Below are positions 8,243 to 26,779 of a stretch of 64,000 bases of DNA, in pieces (the stretch's first letter is position 1; every line of letters begins with the position of its first letter). The notes beneath the pieces were generated by a model. It searched no databases. It was not told the DNA's origin and saw only the letters and a program-made list of their open reading frames with translations. The translations under genes and the position numbers were made by a program. Origin of the DNA: Candidatus Endomicrobiellum trichonymphae (lineage in GTDB: Bacteria > Elusimicrobiota > Endomicrobiia > Endomicrobiales > Endomicrobiaceae); contig NZ_AP017459.1 of assembly GCF_002355835.1 (NCBI RefSeq), positions 806,001-870,000 on the forward strand, written 5' to 3'.

Positions 8243-8661
8243 AATATGATAAGCACAGAACTGTCTAAAAACTGCAGTTTTACATATATTTACAAAAAAC
8301 CATAAACATCCGCGGGCAATACGGATACCTAAATTAATAAAAGCTATAACCAGCGAGCAGCAAGATACTTCAATGGTAAACACGGTGAGGAGAGAAACTA
8401 AGTCTTTTCCTTAGCAGAGAGCGTAAACCCAAAACAGCATAAAGCCCCAGACAGAACTTTTTGACCATTTAATGAAAGCTTCTGAAACTTGCAAAAAATG
8501 GAGTTTTTGTTTCGTCCGGCATAAATTCCGGCAAATACAGCAAAGGATATGTAAAATGTTTCAGGCAGAGCATATAAAATACTCAACGGCATTCTGCTCT
8601 TCAGAAAAATTACAAGATGTACGTAAAATAAATAAAAATTGAAAAATATCAAGGATAAGAC
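8243..8661. other. Intergenic stretch between hup and hom
   Basis: No gene is supported here. A perfect palindrome AAAACTGCAGTTTT lies shortly after hup at about 8264-8280, possibly a weak terminator, though without a long T-run. On the minus strand an 84-codon open frame (8398-8652) is hydrophobic but matches no family I know, and its start overlaps nothing useful. It could be a decayed membrane gene. Confidence 0.4.
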
Positions 8662-9945
8662 ATGGAAAAAAATTATATCAATGTAGGTCTCATAGGATAC
8701 GGAACAGTAGGCAAAGGCGTAGTAAAAATATTAGAAGAAAACAAAAAAATAGTTCTAAGAAAAGTCGGCAATCCTATACGCATAAAATCAATCTGCGATT
8801 TAAACCCCATAGACAAACCCGAACTTCACGTCAAAAATTTCAAAGATATAATAAAAGACCCTGAAATAGATTTGATTGTTGAGCTTATCGGCGGATACGA
8901 ACCTGCGAGAACAATAATAACAGAATCTTTAAAAGCGGGCAAAAACGTTGTCAGCGCGAATAAAGCCGCACTTGCAAAATATTGGGATCAGATTTTCACA
9001 ACAGCGCAAATTTACCAGAAATCAATATATTACGAAGCTTCCGTCGGCGGCGTAATTCCGGTGGTGCAAGGTCTAAGCGAGGGACTTGCTTCCGAAGAAA
9101 TACTCGAAATTAAAGGCATTTTAAACGGCACTACAAATTTTATTCTAAGCGAAATGAAAAAACACTGTGTTTCCTATGAAGAAGCTCTAAAAAGCGCCCA
9201 AAAAGCCGGCTATGCCGAAGCCGACCCATCTTTTGATGTCAACGGTATTGACACGGCAAACAAACTTGCAATACTCGCTTCTCTTGCTTGGGGCAGCTGG
9301 GTAAAAGTTAAAAGTATATCGGTCATCAAGGGTATTGCTGATTTGGATATTGAGGACATTTTAATAACGCAGGATTTCGGATATAACGTAAAACTTATAG
9401 GTTCTGCACAGAAAACAAAAGACGGAATAGATTTGTCCGTACAACCATGCCTTGTAAACCACGAGCATGCTTTTGCAACAGTTGAAAATGAATATAACGC
9501 CATTATGATTACGGGAAAAGATTCAGGCGACGTCTTATTTTACGGAAAAGGTGCGGGACAGCTGCCGGCGGCAAGTGCAGTTGTGTCCGATATTATAAAT
9601 CTTTCAAAATCTATCGTTACAAATACCGCAGGCATTGTTCCAGACGTGGTTTACGACAGCACGAAAAAAATCAAAATTCTTCCTGCAGGCAAGAGTAAAG
9701 CACCTTATTATTTAAAGTTTACGGTCATAGACAAACCCGACGTTTTATCAAAAATTTCAGGTATTTTGTCCAAATTTAAAGTCTCAATAGCAAGAAGTCT
9801 TGCACAATTTAATATAAGCAAAAAGAATTACGGCAGAATTAGCATAATTACGCACGAAACATATTCTGAAAACATTGAAAAAGCCATTAACGCTATAAAA
9901 TCTATAACAAAATCCAAAACGGTTAAAATTAAAATAGAAATTTGA
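8662..9945 (+). CDS. hom: Homoserine dehydrogenase
   Basis: Reduces aspartate semialdehyde to homoserine, the branch point to threonine and methionine. The NAD(P)-binding loop is VGLIGYGTVGKGVVKIL at residue 7. SANKAALAKYW near 99 holds the conserved Lys. GGVIPVVQGLSEGL and ILNGTTNFILSEM are catalytic-domain signatures, and YAEADPSFDVNGIDTANKLAILA carries the substrate-binding Asp/Glu (quoted here as AEADPSFDVNGIDTANKL). A C-terminal ACT domain begins near 350 (YLKFTVIDKPDVLSKISGIL), suggesting allosteric control, typically by threonine. 427 residues, normal length, single gene without fused aspartokinase. Confidence 0.95.
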   Translation: MEKNYINVGLIGYGTVGKGVVKILEENKKIVLRKVGNPIRIKSICDLNPIDKPELHVKNFKDIIKDPEIDLIVELIGGYEPARTIITESLKAGKNVVSANKAALAKYWDQIFTTAQIYQKSIYYEASVGGVIPVVQGLSEGLASEEILEIKGILNGTTNFILSEMKKHCVSYEEALKSAQKAGYAEADPSFDVNGIDTANKLAILASLAWGSWVKVKSISVIKGIADLDIEDILITQDFGYNVKLIGSAQKTKDGIDLSVQPCLVNHEHAFATVENEYNAIMITGKDSGDVLFYGKGAGQLPAASAVVSDIINLSKSIVTNTAGIVPDVVYDSTKKIKILPAGKSKAPYYLKFTVIDKPDVLSKISGILSKFKVSIARSLAQFNISKKNYGRISIITHETYSENIEKAINAIKSITKSKTVKIKIEI

Positions 9946-10946: not shown

Positions 10947-11110
10947 CAACGGCAACAACTTGCCTTTAAAGAGTAAAACTTCGCTTCACTCAACGACAAT
11001 CAACGCACGGAGCTTCGCTCCTCTTATGCTTCGCATTCTCTGTCCTGCTAACGTTTACTGCTTTTTATTTTTTTAGTTCATTTATAGAATTTTACTCTAA
11101 CTAACAACAG
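10947..11110 (-). repeat. Triple mini-hairpin repeat, copy A
   Basis: One of three related copies (others at 21985-22068 and 23869-24030). Read on the minus strand it holds GAATGCGAAGCAT and GGAGCGAAGCTCC, perfect stems closed by a GAA loop, then a third degenerate stem around AGTGAAGCGAAG. Flanking sequence GTAAACGTTAGCAGGA before, and CTCTTTAAAGGCAAGTTGTTG after, is shared with the other copies. It lies immediately downstream of decayed lipoprotein genes, as copy C does. Confidence 0.8.
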
Positions 11111-20656: not shown

Positions 20657-21352
20657 TCAGAGTAATTTCCTCTCATTTATTATTAACTCAAACGCACAAT
20701 CCAAAAAATCAGCAGCCCTCCTACACATAAGCATTCTCGACATAAAAATCTCAAAGTACTCCATAACTTTTGATATCTGCGTATCAATGGTAAGCTGAAG
20801 CGATATAACCTTTTTATCTTTAAGAACTTTCAAAAAAGATTTTTCTACGGCAGAATTCACTCTGTCGTGTATATCATATTTTGAAATATCAGGATTTCTA
20901 ACTCTTGTTTTATGCACGTCAGATTTATCAGCTAAAATTAAGGCAGCCGCCACAGGATTTACGGGATCTCCTGTTTCTTCTTCGTGGTTTCCTACCGCTG
21001 AAATTATCAATGCTGTTTCTTCAGGTGTCATACCCATATCTTTGAGCAATCTCATAGCTACAAGCGCGGCAGACTGCCCATGATCTTTCCTATTTACAAC
21101 ATTGCCTATATCGTGCATATAACCAGCTATTCCCGCAAGTTCCTGAAGTCTTTTCGAATAATCGAGATATAACAAAACGTTTTCAGCTATAGAAGCAACC
21201 AGCTTTACATGCCTGACGCCATGTTCGGTATAACCAATTGTTCCCAAATAATCGTTAGCGGACTTAATAAACGCATTGACTATTGGGTTTTTCTTTATGT
21301 CTTTAAGGACTATATTTGAATACTTATTTTTATCATCCATTATTTTAACCAT
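20657..21352 (-). CDS. HD-domain phosphohydrolase-like protein, paralog 1
   Basis: 231 residues. EHGVRHVKLVASIAENVL near 42, AGYMHDIGNVVNRKDHGQSAA near 72 (the HD pair and a further His) and NHEEETGDP near 117 give a metal-binding HD site. The C-terminal third contains YFEIFMSRMLMCRRAADFL. A paralog at 26114-26779 has the same layout and about half of the residues by eye. Substrate unknown. Placement between yajC and secD is unusual, and both paralogs flank the tgt-yajC junction, suggesting an old tandem duplication. Confidence 0.75.
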   Translation of the reverse strand: MVKIMDDKNKYSNIVLKDIKKNPIVNAFIKSANDYLGTIGYTEHGVRHVKLVASIAENVLLYLDYSKRLQELAGIAGYMHDIGNVVNRKDHGQSAALVAMRLLKDMGMTPEETALIISAVGNHEEETGDPVNPVAAALILADKSDVHKTRVRNPDISKYDIHDRVNSAVEKSFLKVLKDKKVISLQLTIDTQISKVMEYFEIFMSRMLMCRRAADFLDCAFELIINERKLL

Positions 21353-21984: not shown

Positions 21985-22068
21985 AAAAGAAACGACACCG
22001 ACTTGCATTTAAAGAGCGAAACTTCGTTTCACTTAACAACAACGACAGGCACGGAGCTTCGCTCTGAA
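21985..22068 (-). repeat. Triple mini-hairpin repeat, copy B (partial)
   Basis: On the minus strand it reads AGAGCGAAGCTCCGTGCC, then GTTGTTGTTAAGTGAAAC, GAAGTTTCGCTCTTTAAA. It keeps the second and third hairpins of copy C almost exactly but lacks the ATGCGAAGCAT stem and the sequence before it. It marks the tgt-side end of the inserted element. Confidence 0.85.
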
Positions 22069-22089: not shown

Positions 22090-23256
22090 AAAGGCTAGTC
22101 ATTGCGACATAAAACAAGTTGCGTTCCTCTGGTTCATTTTTAATTTCGCCGTGATAAATAAGCGGTGTGCGCCCATTTTCAGCACCTACGATAAACACTG
22201 TATCAAACTCTAAGCCCTTAGCAGAATGAAACGCAAAACTTTATTGCCTATATCGGCAAAAGTATCCTCTGTAGTCATATCCTGTACATAATCTAACCAG
22301 CCTTGTACGCTTTCGTCGCCAAAAGCAGCAATATATAAAACAATACCTTTACGCACCTTCCTCAAGAGCATCATTACGTGTCTGCTCGTAAACTCCAGAG
22401 CTTTTACCTTGATAATCTACATCTTTAAGAGCATATCCGTGAAATAACTTAAACAAAATATAATCACAAACAGCGGTAAGCTCTTTCATATCAGAACATT
22501 TATTTAAATAGTCAGTAAGAACAGAATAATAATTTGACAATCTAGTACAAAGAACATTTGTTAATTTACCAAAAGACATATTTTTGATATTGGATAACGC
22601 TTCATAAATAGATACGCTAGCAATCTCGGCATAGCTTCTAAGCTTTTTAAGAGAGGCTTCTCCAAACAGCTTAACATTTCTAGTCAATAAACGTTCAACA
22701 GCCAAATCATTTTTTGTGTCAATCAAAAATCAAAATAAGCGATAACATCTTTGACTTCTGGTCTAGCATACAAACTGTCAGCAGACTTAATTACATACGG
22801 AATATTTTCAGATTTAAGAGCCTGTTTAATCTTACTTTCCTTGCCAATAAGATTATTCGTGCGAGCTAATATTGCATAATTTTTATACAAATTATCGGAT
22901 TTAATAATATCTATAATATTTTTTTCGGGAGTGTCTGTTTGATATAACTGCAAGTCAGATAAGCTTCTTCCGTCAGAAACTGCTTCAAGCGGTTTAGACA
23001 ACCTGTTAGGATTACATTGTATTAATTGATTGGCGTGTTCAAGGACTACAGGAGCAGAACGATAATTATAAGTAAGGTACAACTGTTTAACAGTTTTTGA
23101 GGCGGAATACCTTTAGACAATAAAGTACGCAAAACGTCTGGCAATAACTGTAGTTTTGCCTGTTCCTTGCGCCAGCATAAACAATATAGGAGCCTTTATC
23201 TGTTGTGATAGCTTCTCTTCATTCATATCTTTTAAAATATGACTTAAATCACTCAT
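22090..23256 (-). pseudogene. UvrD/Rep-type helicase with large internal deletion
   Basis: Starts at 23256 (MSDLSHILKDMNEEK) and reaches a Walker A, MLAQGTGKTTVIARRFA. It then jumps straight to motif IV-like YLTYNYRSAPVVLEHANQLI and on through NYAILARTNN (22723-23082), 22349-22726, and finally AKGLEFDTVFIVGAENGRTPL and ERNLFYVAMT (motifs V/VI) in other frames. The segment between motifs I and III is missing, and at least three frameshifts are present. Intact superfamily 1A helicases have about 650-700 residues. It could be a chromosomal gene caught up in the insertion, or element cargo. Confidence 0.75.
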
Positions 23257-23606: not shown

Positions 23607-23868
23607 GAAAAGCACTCCTTTAAATAAATTAAGCGGGGATACCGCTACTTCTACTAGACAGCCTCAAGAGTGCGCCAAAGAATAACAACACAAGACAAAA
23701 AACAAGATTAACAACAACATTGCAATAACAACCAAACAACAACAGCAACAACATTTTTTTATAAACATAGTATCTAATATCCAATATAGCAGGGGCAACA
23801 ACAACATAATTAATCAACTAAACTAAATACAAATTCTTTCATATAAAAGTTCTAATATTACATAACAA

Positions 23869-24030
23869 CAACAAACAACGACAACAACTTACATTTAAAG
23901 AGCGAAACTTCGTTTCACTTAACAACAACGACAGGCACGGAGCTTCGCTCCTCTTATGCTTCGCATTCTATATCCTGCTAACGTTTACTACTTTTTATTT
24001 TTTACGGAATTTTACTCTAACAACAACTTT
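23869..24030 (-). repeat. Triple mini-hairpin repeat, copy C (fullest)
   Basis: Minus strand order: GTAAACGTTAGCAGGATATA, hairpin 1 ATGCGAAGCAT, hairpin 2 GGAGCGAAGCTCC, a GTGCCTGTCGTTGTTGTTA linker, hairpin 3 AGTGAAACGAAGTTTCGCT (8-bp stem with one wobble), then CTTTAAATGTAAGTTGTTG. All three stems close on C-GAA-G; two contain the heptamer GCGAAGC, known as an exceptionally stable DNA mini-hairpin. It lies directly downstream of the lipoprotein gene, on the strand that would be the viral strand. Confidence 0.88.
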
Positions 24031-24060: not shown

Positions 24061-24633
24061 TCAATCATCCATCGCCATTCTCAATCTAGCATTCTCAAGC
24101 CTTAATTGCGTATTCTCATAATGCGACCTATTAAAGTCTTGCCTATATAAATCACTAACGTGTTTTAAACCAACAATTTCGTTATTCAAACCATCAACTT
24201 GGAGATTCAAATACGCATTCCGCTTAAGAAGTCCTTTTTCATAATTAGCCCTGTCTCTAGCATTCACTTCAGCCCAAGCAATACGCGCTCTTTGTTCGTT
24301 TTCTAGCTGAACCTGCAAAGGAACTCGTCCGACTGCTTCTTGATTGGCTCGATTAATTTGTTCCTGCAATACAGAGAAAATGTTAAACACAACAACGAAT
24401 CCCGTTATATAACCTACAGCATTGTCCCAAACAGAGTCCGTCTTTTTTTCTTTATCCTCATAACATTTTGAAACATCGTCGTCCATCTTTTTCAATGTAT
24501 TAATATCCACTTCAACCATAGTCTTTTCAGCCGACGGCAATACTGCAGTGTTTAACAATGTTTATTTTTTACCACAACTGGAAAGAAGAACCAACGAAAA
24601 AACAGTTAATAAAGACAGCAACACTCTTACCAT
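24061..24633 (-). pseudogene. Lipoprotein with coiled coil, nonsense codon after lipobox
   Basis: Start 24633 gives MVRVLLSLLTVFSLVLLSSCG, a lipoprotein signal with lipobox LSSC. Codon 24 is TAA, after which the same frame is open for 166 codons (TLLNTAVLPSAEKTM onward). The paralog at 11169-11374 has CAA here, so this is a C-to-T change. The rest has one membrane segment (VGYITGFVVVFNIFSVL) and a long charged coiled-coil tail (NRANQEAVGRV..., NSEIVGLKHV-like region, ENTQLRLENARLRM). Probably an envelope-anchored protein of the mobile element. A TTG at 24558 could restart translation without the signal. Confidence 0.6.
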
Positions 24634-24775: not shown

Positions 24776-25199
24776 TCAGTCATTAATATCATAATTATTT
24801 TTACGCATTAAATCCTCATTTAATTTTTGTACAATTTCGGCATTACGCTCCAGAGCTTCATTAAAACGGACTTTCTCAACGGCTTCTTTTCCCTTAACAT
24901 CTGGATTTTTTTAAACCAATCCTACAGATACCAATCTTAGCAAAATTAGTACTCCAACCATCAACAAGACCAACAGAACCAGCAGTAGCCGCATTAGTAA
25001 AAACATCAGCAGAAGCGACAACAGAAGCAGGAAACTCACGATTAAAGCCTAATCCTAATGCTTTTGAATATTGCCTAAAAGGCGCGAGCCTGCCATTCTT
25101 ATCACACATAATTAAAATCTTATCTTTTTTAGCTGTTGCAACTCTGCCTTTTGCTTCAACCAAAGTTTTACGATAATTAATTCTCGCCTGCTTCAACAT
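24776..25199 (-). pseudogene. Unknown element protein (ORF X), frameshifted in an A7 run
   Basis: Begins in MLKQARINYRKTLVEAKGRV and passes GRLAPFRQYSKALGLGFNRE, ASADVFTNAATAGSVGLVDG to ICRIG. A seven-A run near 24908 shifts the frame. The continuation KNPDVKGKEAVEKVRFNEAL, ERNAEIVQKLNEDLMRKN ends at 24776. The copy at 11598-12053 keeps both halves, supporting a single gene of about 140 residues. The N-terminus appears fused to the end of the replication gene by deletion. No family recognised. Confidence 0.6.
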
Positions 25200-25987
25200 A
25201 TATTTGCAGCATAATTAAAACAGCCTTTAGACGTACAATCACAAAGTTTGCGAACTTCACCGTATTTCCAAATTTTTTGGAGCAATTCATTTGTAGAATT
25301 CCATTGAGCTTGTTGCTTTTTCAAAAAATAATAATCATATTTAGCCATTGACAAAGACTTCATATTATCAAAAATAACCCCACTTGTTATAATCTTTAGT
25401 TATTCTAGATATAGTTTTAGGGCTATAGCCAGCGCTAAGCCCATATACAGTGATATGATAATGCGGTCTATCCAATATATTTCCGTATTCACCGCAATAA
25501 AAGCACCTAATCTTTAAATTTCTATGATAACTAAGATAATCACGCAAATCCTTAATAAATGTCTGGACGTCAAGTTTACGAAACGTAGAATATTTATTCA
25601 ATTCACGTACAAGCTCATTATGTTCACAACCACAGCAATACTCGTTAGGATTAGCACGATGTTCAAAATGAGTAGGAAGCATATTATATGAATGCCGATT
25701 ATAAACAGAACTTTTTTTGGCATAACGCCTGCCATAAGACTTTAATATTTTCAACTGCTCTTTTATTTCATCTGAACGCTTACCGTATTGAGGCAATATG
25801 GGCAAATTGTTATTATCATAGGTAAGAGTCAACAAGCATTTACATAACCGCTATCCGTAAAATGTACAGCTTCGTCAGACATACGCTGACTAAGTTCTTG
25901 TGCTTTGTCCTTAAGGCAACCAAGGCAATGATTACAACGAACGTAAACTTCTGGCACTGCAGTGCCATTGCGAGATTTAGGTCTCAT
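25193..25987 (-). pseudogene. Microviridae VP4-like rolling-circle replication protein, broken
   Basis: Three frame segments of one gene. N-terminal: MRPKSRNGTAVPEV and CNHCLGCLKDKAQELSQRM, the Cys-pair opening typical of gokushovirus VP4. After a one-base shift near 25837: LTLTYDNNNLPIL, then FIKDLRDYLSYHRNLKIRCF, CGEYGNILDRPHYHITVYG with the HUH-type metal motif (HYH). After a further shift near 25367: KYDYYFLKKQQAQWNSTNEL, where YFLK fits the catalytic Tyr motif YxxK. Summed length about 260 residues, near the family norm. It would nick the origin to start rolling-circle replication. Inactive now. A plasmid Rep derived from VP4 is the alternative. Confidence 0.82.
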
Positions 25988-25999
25988 TTTAACACCTAA

Positions 26000-26114
26000 C
26001 CTTGCGTTCCCACAGGCATAAAAACCGGAGTGTCAATAACACAGCACAAACTCTTCCGCGCCTTGCTCTGAGTTCAGGGGATTTTTTTATAAGTTGGTAA
26101 GAACCATATTCCAT
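26000..26114 (-). pseudogene. tgt: N-terminal fragment of queuine tRNA-ribosyltransferase
   Basis: Start 26114 overlaps the stop of the HD gene (TAATG). MEYGSYQLIKKSPELRARRG and, after a shift, IDTPVFMPVGTQG are the unmistakable Tgt opening (RARRGR...TPVFMPVGTQ). Homology ends at about 26000 where the mobile element begins. The catalytic Asp residues and zinc site are absent, so tRNA queuosine modification through Tgt is lost unless a second copy exists. Confidence 0.88.
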
Positions 26115-26779
26115 TACAGAAACTTATCCTCATTAATATACAATTCAAAATTACAGTTTAAAACGCTGCTTGCTCTTCTGCAGAAATTTGTCCTTGACAT
26201 AAATATTTCAAAATAGTCCATAACCGAACATATTGTGGCGTCGATTTTTATCCGCAATCCGATAGTCATCTCTTCTTTATTTATAACAACATCAACTTTT
26301 TGACAGGCGGCAATGATACGAGAATGTTTATAGACATAATACAAATCTTCAGCCCTTATTCTCTCGCGGCGCACATCTGTTTTATCTCCGAGAACAAGAG
26401 CGGCAGCAATCGCCGACACCGGATCCACAGTCTTATCTTCATGACAACCTACAGCGCTTGCTATAGCAAAAATATCTTCATTATATCTGTTATCTCCAAT
26501 AACATTTAAAAACATTATTGAGCTGCTTTGATCATGTCCATATTTTGAAACCAAATTGCCCATATCGTGAATATAAGAAGCAATTTTAGCAAGTTCCTGT
26601 TCTCTTTTGCTGTAGCCTAAATATTTCAAAATCCGCTCGGCAATTTCAGCGGCGTACAAAGCATGACCTCTGCCATGCTCTTTATATCCCATAAGAGCAA
26701 ATGTTTTGTCCATAAATTCAAAATATGTCCGTATCTCAAGGTTATTTTTTATTTCTTCAAAAGTTAATATCTCATCCAT
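26114..26779 (-). CDS. HD-domain phosphohydrolase-like protein, paralog 2
   Basis: 221 residues, intact. EHGRGHALYAAEIAERILKY near 40, ASYIHDMGNLVSKYGHDQSS near 68 and GCHEDKTVDP near 112 repeat the metal-binding pattern of the HD protein at 20657-21352. VMDYFEIFMSRTNFCRRASS near the C-terminus is nearly the same in both. It was the gene directly upstream of tgt (one-base overlap), so the ancestral order was HD2-tgt-yajC-HD1-secD-secF. Substrate unknown. Confidence 0.75.
   Translation of the reverse strand: MDEILTFEEIKNNLEIRTYFEFMDKTFALMGYKEHGRGHALYAAEIAERILKYLGYSKREQELAKIASYIHDMGNLVSKYGHDQSSSIMFLNVIGDNRYNEDIFAIASAVGCHEDKTVDPVSAIAAALVLGDKTDVRRERIRAEDLYYVYKHSRIIAACQKVDVVINKEEMTIGLRIKIDATICSVMDYFEIFMSRTNFCRRASSVLNCNFELYINEDKFL

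Follow-up and report, generated by a model that had tools for sequence, protein, structure and literature searches.

A mini-hairpin repeat of small modular plasmids and of their chromosomal scars in the 'Ca. Endomicrobium trichonymphae' lineage

Introduction

DNA mini-hairpins of the d(GCGAAGC) type occur in the origins of single-stranded DNA (ssDNA) phages and in phage N4 promoters. Tandem hairpins with the same heptamer and loop are found in the chromosome of the termite-gut endosymbiont 'Ca. Endomicrobium trichonymphae', next to a gene for a replication initiator of the rolling-circle type, and an earlier note on this DNA linked them to rolling-circle or ssDNA-phage replication. We asked whether these hairpins are indeed part of such a replication system or belong to a different kind of element. 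The genome consists of the chromosome (C1, 1,114,532 bp) and three contigs, C2 (5.5 kb), C3 (5.8 kb) and C4 (5.0 kb). The stretch analyzed, hereafter the window, covers 64 kb (C1:806001-870000); coordinates given without a contig name are window positions.

Results

Anatomy of the hairpins in the window

Three stem-loops are present on the minus strand at 23901-23966 and again at 10972-11036, and all window hairpins, read on this strand, have the C-GAA-G loop closure described in the earlier note. In the first locus, hairpin 1 (ATGC-GAA-GCAT, ATGCGAAGCAT) occupies positions 23956-23966, hairpin 2 (GGAGC-GAA-GCTCC, GGAGCGAAGCTCC) positions 23939-23951, and hairpin 3, the longest (AGTGAAAC-GAA-GTTTCGCT), positions 23901-23919. 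In the second, decayed locus, the corresponding minus-strand hairpins are located at 11026-11036 (ATGCGAAGCAT), 11009-11021 (GGAGCGAAGCTCC) and 10972-10990 (AGTGAAGC-GAA-GTTTTACT). The two versions of hairpin 3 differ at three positions, and pairing is kept, allowing G-T, on the GAA strand only; this is suggestive, but chance could also produce it. The third copy that had been reported, at 21985-22068, is truncated (22015-22065) and joins the end of a helicase remnant: it retains hairpin 3 (22015-22033, minus strand) and hairpin 2 minus its outer pair (AGAGCGAAGCTCC, 22053-22065, minus strand) and lacks hairpin 1, so that the full set of three hairpins holds for two of the three copies. A search of the window for GGAGCTTCGCTCC with up to two mismatches yielded three matches vs 0.40 expected. 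Hairpin 3 is confined to the window copies, being found neither on the plasmids nor in the copy at C1:225 kb; the minus-strand interval 23935-23980 holds the shared block (GATATAGAATGCG...CTCCGTGC) plus a portion of the flank upstream of it.

Distribution of the block

The core of the block, ATGCGAAGCAT-AAGA-GGAGCGAAGCTCC, is present in 11 copies in the genome, so the three copies counted previously were an undercount; the complete repeat is about 44 bp long (GACATAGA-ATGCGAAGCAT-AAGA-GGAGCGAAGCTCC-GTGC.TGTC). In the whole genome, GGAGCGAAGCTCC with at most one mismatch has 11 matches vs 0 for the reversed control, and exact ATGCGAAGCAT occurs 8 times in 1.13 Mb, every time inside the block (reversed control, 1). 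Five copies reside on C2, C3 and C4, two (C1:1953 and C1:4754) within a plasmid remnant integrated in dnaA, and four at chromosomal sites that retain parts of a VP4 element, namely, C1:225965 and the three window loci. No copy was found elsewhere in the genome, and the possibility of a chromosomal many-copy intergenic repeat was rejected, all 11 copies being in plasmid-type contigs or scars. The search of the plasmids that the earlier note had proposed added six copies on pTGRD1-3 of 'Ca. Endomicrobium trichonymphae' (three, one and two, respectively), where the identical block follows rep and lipoprotein genes; the PLSDB annotation of these records does not list the repeat.

Outside this lineage, a search of 41 other genomes of the genus for the tandem GCGAAGC pattern gave four matches vs two in the reversed control, none of the four having the block sequence, and no block was found on related plasmids of other Endomicrobium species. 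The scan of GTDB species for the pattern produced three single, chance-level matches (metagenome-assembled genomes of Roseburia, Pseudolabrys and Yanofskybacteria). There was no exact-stem match to the hairpins in IMG/VR and no Rfam match at the blocks of the window or of the plasmids.

Position and strand

On the plasmids, the block is invariably on the coding strand, the strand of rep, and 10 of the 13 plasmid-type copies fall within a span that begins 13 nt ahead of the end of the upstream gene and closes 50 nt past it. On pTGRD1-3, this range (-13 to +50 nt of the end of a co-directional gene) includes five of the six copies, or three of the four distinct contexts, with P of 2.6e-7 for copies and 1.5e-4 for contexts; when only non-coding positions were allowed, the values were 6e-6 and 1e-3. 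The context-based values are the safer ones because the copies are related. The block directly follows rep in all six rep genes of the lineage that were examined. In three of these, hairpin 1 supplies the last codons and the stop (GAA TGC/CGC GAA GCA TAA); the remaining three end 6-18 nt before hairpin 1. Genes for lipoproteins or small proteins end 33-50 nt ahead of another four plasmid copies (two on pTGRD1 and a single one on C2 and on C3), and a small lipoprotein gene ends 21 nt ahead of the copy at C1:225 kb. For the copies at C3:1275, C4:2437 and pTGRD3:2602, the distance from the nearest gene in front is 180-510 nt. On its other side, the block mostly precedes the leader of the next gene.

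Relationship to replication genes

The adjacency to a rolling-circle gene is real in the window, where a partial ORF (25368-25835, minus strand) encodes a VP4-like, microvirus-type replication initiator (PHROG 942, replication initiation protein, 1e-17; Pfam REP_ORF2-G2P, 3e-10). A small ORF of unknown function comes after it (24894-25199, minus strand) and is also present in the C1:225 kb copy; these two VP4 loci are 99.8% identical over 947 bp (24.7-25.6 kb in the window), and the VP4 piece at C1:224584-224844, where the gene is truncated, is 98% identical to window VP4. No capsid gene was recognized beside VP4. Phage records contain 1,595 distant (microvirus) matches, at or below about 35% identity among the matches listed, and no relatives of the protein were confirmed in IMG/VR. 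Tandem GAA/GNA hairpins were not found in four close microvirus relatives.

The predicted proximity of the repeat to Rep genes was borne out on the small plasmids of this genome and a sister genome, except that this Rep is not of the rolling-circle type. The plasmid Rep (C4 1-1275; C1 3476-4732; pTGRD1-3 from position 1) is unrelated to VP4 and is not an HUH protein; its N-terminus weakly resembles DnaA domain I (Pfam DnaA_N, E 0.0046, below the cut-off) and is fused to an unassigned domain. The rep gene is preceded by 22-bp direct repeats, as in iteron plasmids, and no such hairpins follow the orthologous Reps of other Endomicrobium species. For these reasons, we link the block to the plasmids and not to rolling-circle replication; the claimed connection is further disfavored by the microvirus relatives without hairpins and the many copies behind lipoprotein genes. 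An ssDNA-phage complementary-strand origin or a plasmid sso is unlikely, given that most copies are on iteron plasmids, that VP4 is found only at chromosomal remnants, and that neither the four microvirus relatives nor IMG/VR contain the block or its exact stems, respectively; the block as the replication origin of an ssDNA virus is not supported.

C2 and C3 are plasmid-type small contigs without a recognizable rep, coding mostly for small lipoproteins. No match to Rep was found on either, and they are presumably replicated in trans.

Plasmid scars in the chromosome

The window loci at 10.9-12.0 kb and 22.0-26.1 kb combine shared plasmid sequence with remains of an element with a VP4-type Rep. 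A 102-bp stretch containing the block at 23935-23980 is 97% identical to pTGRD1 9091-9192, and about 290 nt past this block, there is a 38-nt motif (TTGAGGCTGTCTAGTAGAAGTAGCGGTATCCCCGCTTA; TTGAGGCTGTYYAGYAGAAGYAGCGGTATYCCCGCTTA) at 23630-23667 on the minus strand. It is identical to the degenerate consensus of the plasmid copies on C2 (5057), C3 (1455), pTGRD1 (1457 and 6201), pTGRD2 (1453) and pTGRD3 (2776). The shared motif and the 102-bp stretch therefore place the window loci in the same plasmid family, and we read the VP4 loci in the window and at C1:225 kb as remnants of integrated plasmid-like elements with a VP4-type Rep. The 38-nt motif also heads a conserved, hairpin-rich, non-coding plasmid region of about 700 bp. 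As a shared cis-acting maintenance site, it is a better candidate than the mini-hairpins.

Ahead of the hairpins in the window is the remnant of a small lipoprotein gene (24061-24558, minus strand) with relatives at pTGRD1 8648-9100 and C3 3956-4399. The earlier statement that the same lipoprotein gene precedes the hairpins in two loci is loosely right, although neither has an intact version, and at C1:225 kb, the third locus, the gene is a different one, so that the near-identical VP4 loci differ in the small lipoprotein gene before the block. A remnant of a second UvrD-like helicase, split into two ORFs (22349-23082, minus strand), is distinct from the helicase at C1:1060559, with 36% identity to this chromosomal protein over the compared part; it may once have been part of the VP4 element. 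The integrated-element stretch is flanked by similar HD-domain proteins encoded on the same strand (20657-21352 and 26114-26779). Elsewhere in the chromosome, C1:1070089-1070208 is another decayed plasmid rep fragment, with three stops in 120 bp.

Plasmid DNA has also entered dnaA, loss of which was already reported for this species (PMC10579323). About 6.3 kb of plasmid DNA interrupts the only dnaA of the genome, with the Bac_DnaA profile matched from 2 to 97 at C1:331-618 and from 97 to 161 at C1:6929-7114. The insert (within C1 1-7340) contains two rep genes, one of them intact (418 aa), and 22-bp iteron-like direct repeats. Sampled GC skew switches sign near the C1 ends and near 620 kb. 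Possibly, the plasmid replicon inside dnaA now starts the chromosome, a case of natural integrative suppression.

Folding, stem conservation and terminator features

Folding of the blocks is slightly better than that of shuffled sequences on either strand, as RNA or as DNA (z -1.0 to -2.0). RNAalifold recovered the two hairpins without covariation: eight of the nine pairs are invariant, and one is broken once. The changes among the plasmid copies comprise one that breaks a stem (C4:1263, T to C, disrupting hairpin 1 on the GAA strand), one in a spacer and one in a loop, the only loop change (GAA to GAAA, C4:2437), which remains in the GNA/GNNA class. Such loops with G-C pairs form very stable DNA mini-hairpins (PMC4686876), the stability class to which the heptamer and loop of the block belong; the block differs from its phage counterparts in that its host plasmids use an iteron-type Rep. 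The folding and variation data do not tell RNA from ssDNA. Compensatory stem changes, the check suggested by the earlier note, are absent, so the conserved stems are no evidence of selection on pairing, and recent spread suffices to explain them.

On the GAA strand, the hairpins are not followed by a T-run. A terminator scan did not call the coding strand and called the opposite strand only weakly, whereas classical terminators are present elsewhere on these plasmids, for example, AGCTTGCAGAAATGCAGGCT-CTTTTTTT at C3:5612. A Rho-independent terminator was therefore rejected.

Discussion

The best reading of these observations is that the block is a lineage-specific repeat of small modular plasmids in the 'Ca. 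Endomicrobium trichonymphae' lineage. It has partial parallels among known repeats. In enterobacteria, REP/BIME elements are short palindromes located in transcribed 3' regions of genes. The block, too, consists of short palindromes behind genes, but it has another sequence, is limited to 11 copies on plasmids and in plasmid scars, and comes without a Y1/RAYT transposase. Rickettsia palindromic elements are small palindromic repeats of intracellular bacteria that can add codons to genes, as the block does at the ends of three rep genes; unlike them, it is plasmid-borne, has few copies and provides last codons only. The pdif (XerC/D) modules of Acinetobacter plasmids likewise belong to small plasmids of exchangeable modules, but the block has neither a dif-like 11-6-11 site nor an excess of breakpoints.

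What the block does, if anything, can be approached through its position and its mobility. Our tentative preference, at a little under an even chance, is for a 3'-end element of plasmid transcripts: position and strand are direct observations, from which action in the mRNA is inferred. On the coding strand behind rep and lipoprotein genes, the block would form two neighboring mini-hairpins, and this structured 3' end would bound or protect the mRNA of the preceding gene. Besides position and strand, the loop change that stays in the GNA/GNNA class and the preserved pairing of hairpin 3 agree with this reading; the missing T-run, the mild folding z-scores, the lack of covariation, the broken stem at C4:1263, the three copies far from any gene end and the plasmids of other Endomicrobium species without the block count against it. 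Copies probably spread between plasmids by ordinary recombination and may have reached the chromosome through integration of plasmid-like elements. A more specialized role in mobility, as a cassette joint of the integron, pdif or hotspot kind at which the gene in front is swapped, was suggested by pairwise comparisons in which perfect identities end at the block: C2 and pTGRD1 are identical over 279 bp up to it and diverge 36 nt inside, C3 and pTGRD1 over 449 bp, likewise diverging there, and for two copies on pTGRD1, the perfect identity covers 892 bp downstream of the block, with none upstream. This hotspot did not survive a control in which all plasmid tract ends were counted: breakpoints are everywhere, and the blocks account for 3 of the 108 tract ends, roughly in line with their share of the sequence. 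Nor is there a fitting recombination site, given that the best match of the block to the arms of E. coli dif or Acinetobacter pdif in an 11-6-11 arrangement does not exceed shuffles, which led us to reject a XerC/D dif or pdif site, and that an integron attC was rejected because no paired GTTRRRY/RYYYAAC boxes are present at the block, no integron integrase is encoded in the genome, and the only tyrosine recombinases are one XerC-like and one XerD-like. An apparent target-site duplication (AAAAGTAAAAATA) around one insertion was discarded as well, since this sequence occurs again within the flank and homologous exchange explains it. A REP/REPIN element with a RAYT was rejected because the Y1 transposase (PF01797) is absent from the genome, in a search that detected the controls. 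With tract ends not enriched and no dif or attC site, integrase or Y1 transposase, ordinary recombination within a family of mosaic plasmids suffices, and the cassette joint appears very improbable.

The same recombination could act on a repeat without any function. A selfish or neutral palindromic repeat, moved by plasmid recombination and integration, whose apparent stem conservation reflects only the young age or gene conversion of its copies, would account for the near-identity of the copies without covariation and for their homogenization within plasmids, evident in the long perfect tract behind the pTGRD1 pair and in CTCCTTGCTAGTC, common to both C4 copies. It fits also the lack of the block on plasmids of the sister species and the same flank without hairpins at C2:4938, pTGRD1:6082 and pTGRD3:3340. 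We nevertheless consider it somewhat unlikely, in view of the tight, strand-fixed placement at gene ends in three of four distinct contexts, the lack of a REP-type transposase and the absence of copies from the remainder of the 1.1-Mb chromosome. Less probable still is a Rep-independent ssDNA signal, such as a complementary-strand or primosome start, in which ultra-stable GNA mini-hairpins on the exposed rep-sense strand would explain the presence of the block in two replicon types. The block is common to the iteron plasmids and the VP4 (HUH-type) element, with which only one other cis motif has been seen so far to be shared; it is always on one strand, belongs by its loops and G-C pairs to the extremely stable ssDNA class (PMC4686876), and in one copy precedes the 38-nt motif on C3, on pTGRD1-3 and in the window. 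Against such a signal stand the extra copies behind lipoprotein genes, the non-coding regions without hairpins on C2 and in one part of pTGRD1, the lack of the block in microvirus relatives and sister-species plasmids, and a DNA folding z-score of only about -1.9. A bolder variant, which we regard as quite doubtful, would combine the tandem GNA mini-hairpins with the 38-nt motif into a portable Rep-independent single-strand site of two unrelated replicon types that lets plasmids, including C2 and C3, persist in trans.

The block thus marks a plasmid family, each occurrence in the lineage being a plasmid or a plasmid scar, and it provides a concrete candidate for a 3'-end or ssDNA element in an uncultured bacterium. 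Its distribution reveals a reduced endosymbiont chromosome that has been strongly colonized by its own small plasmids, even inside the only dnaA.
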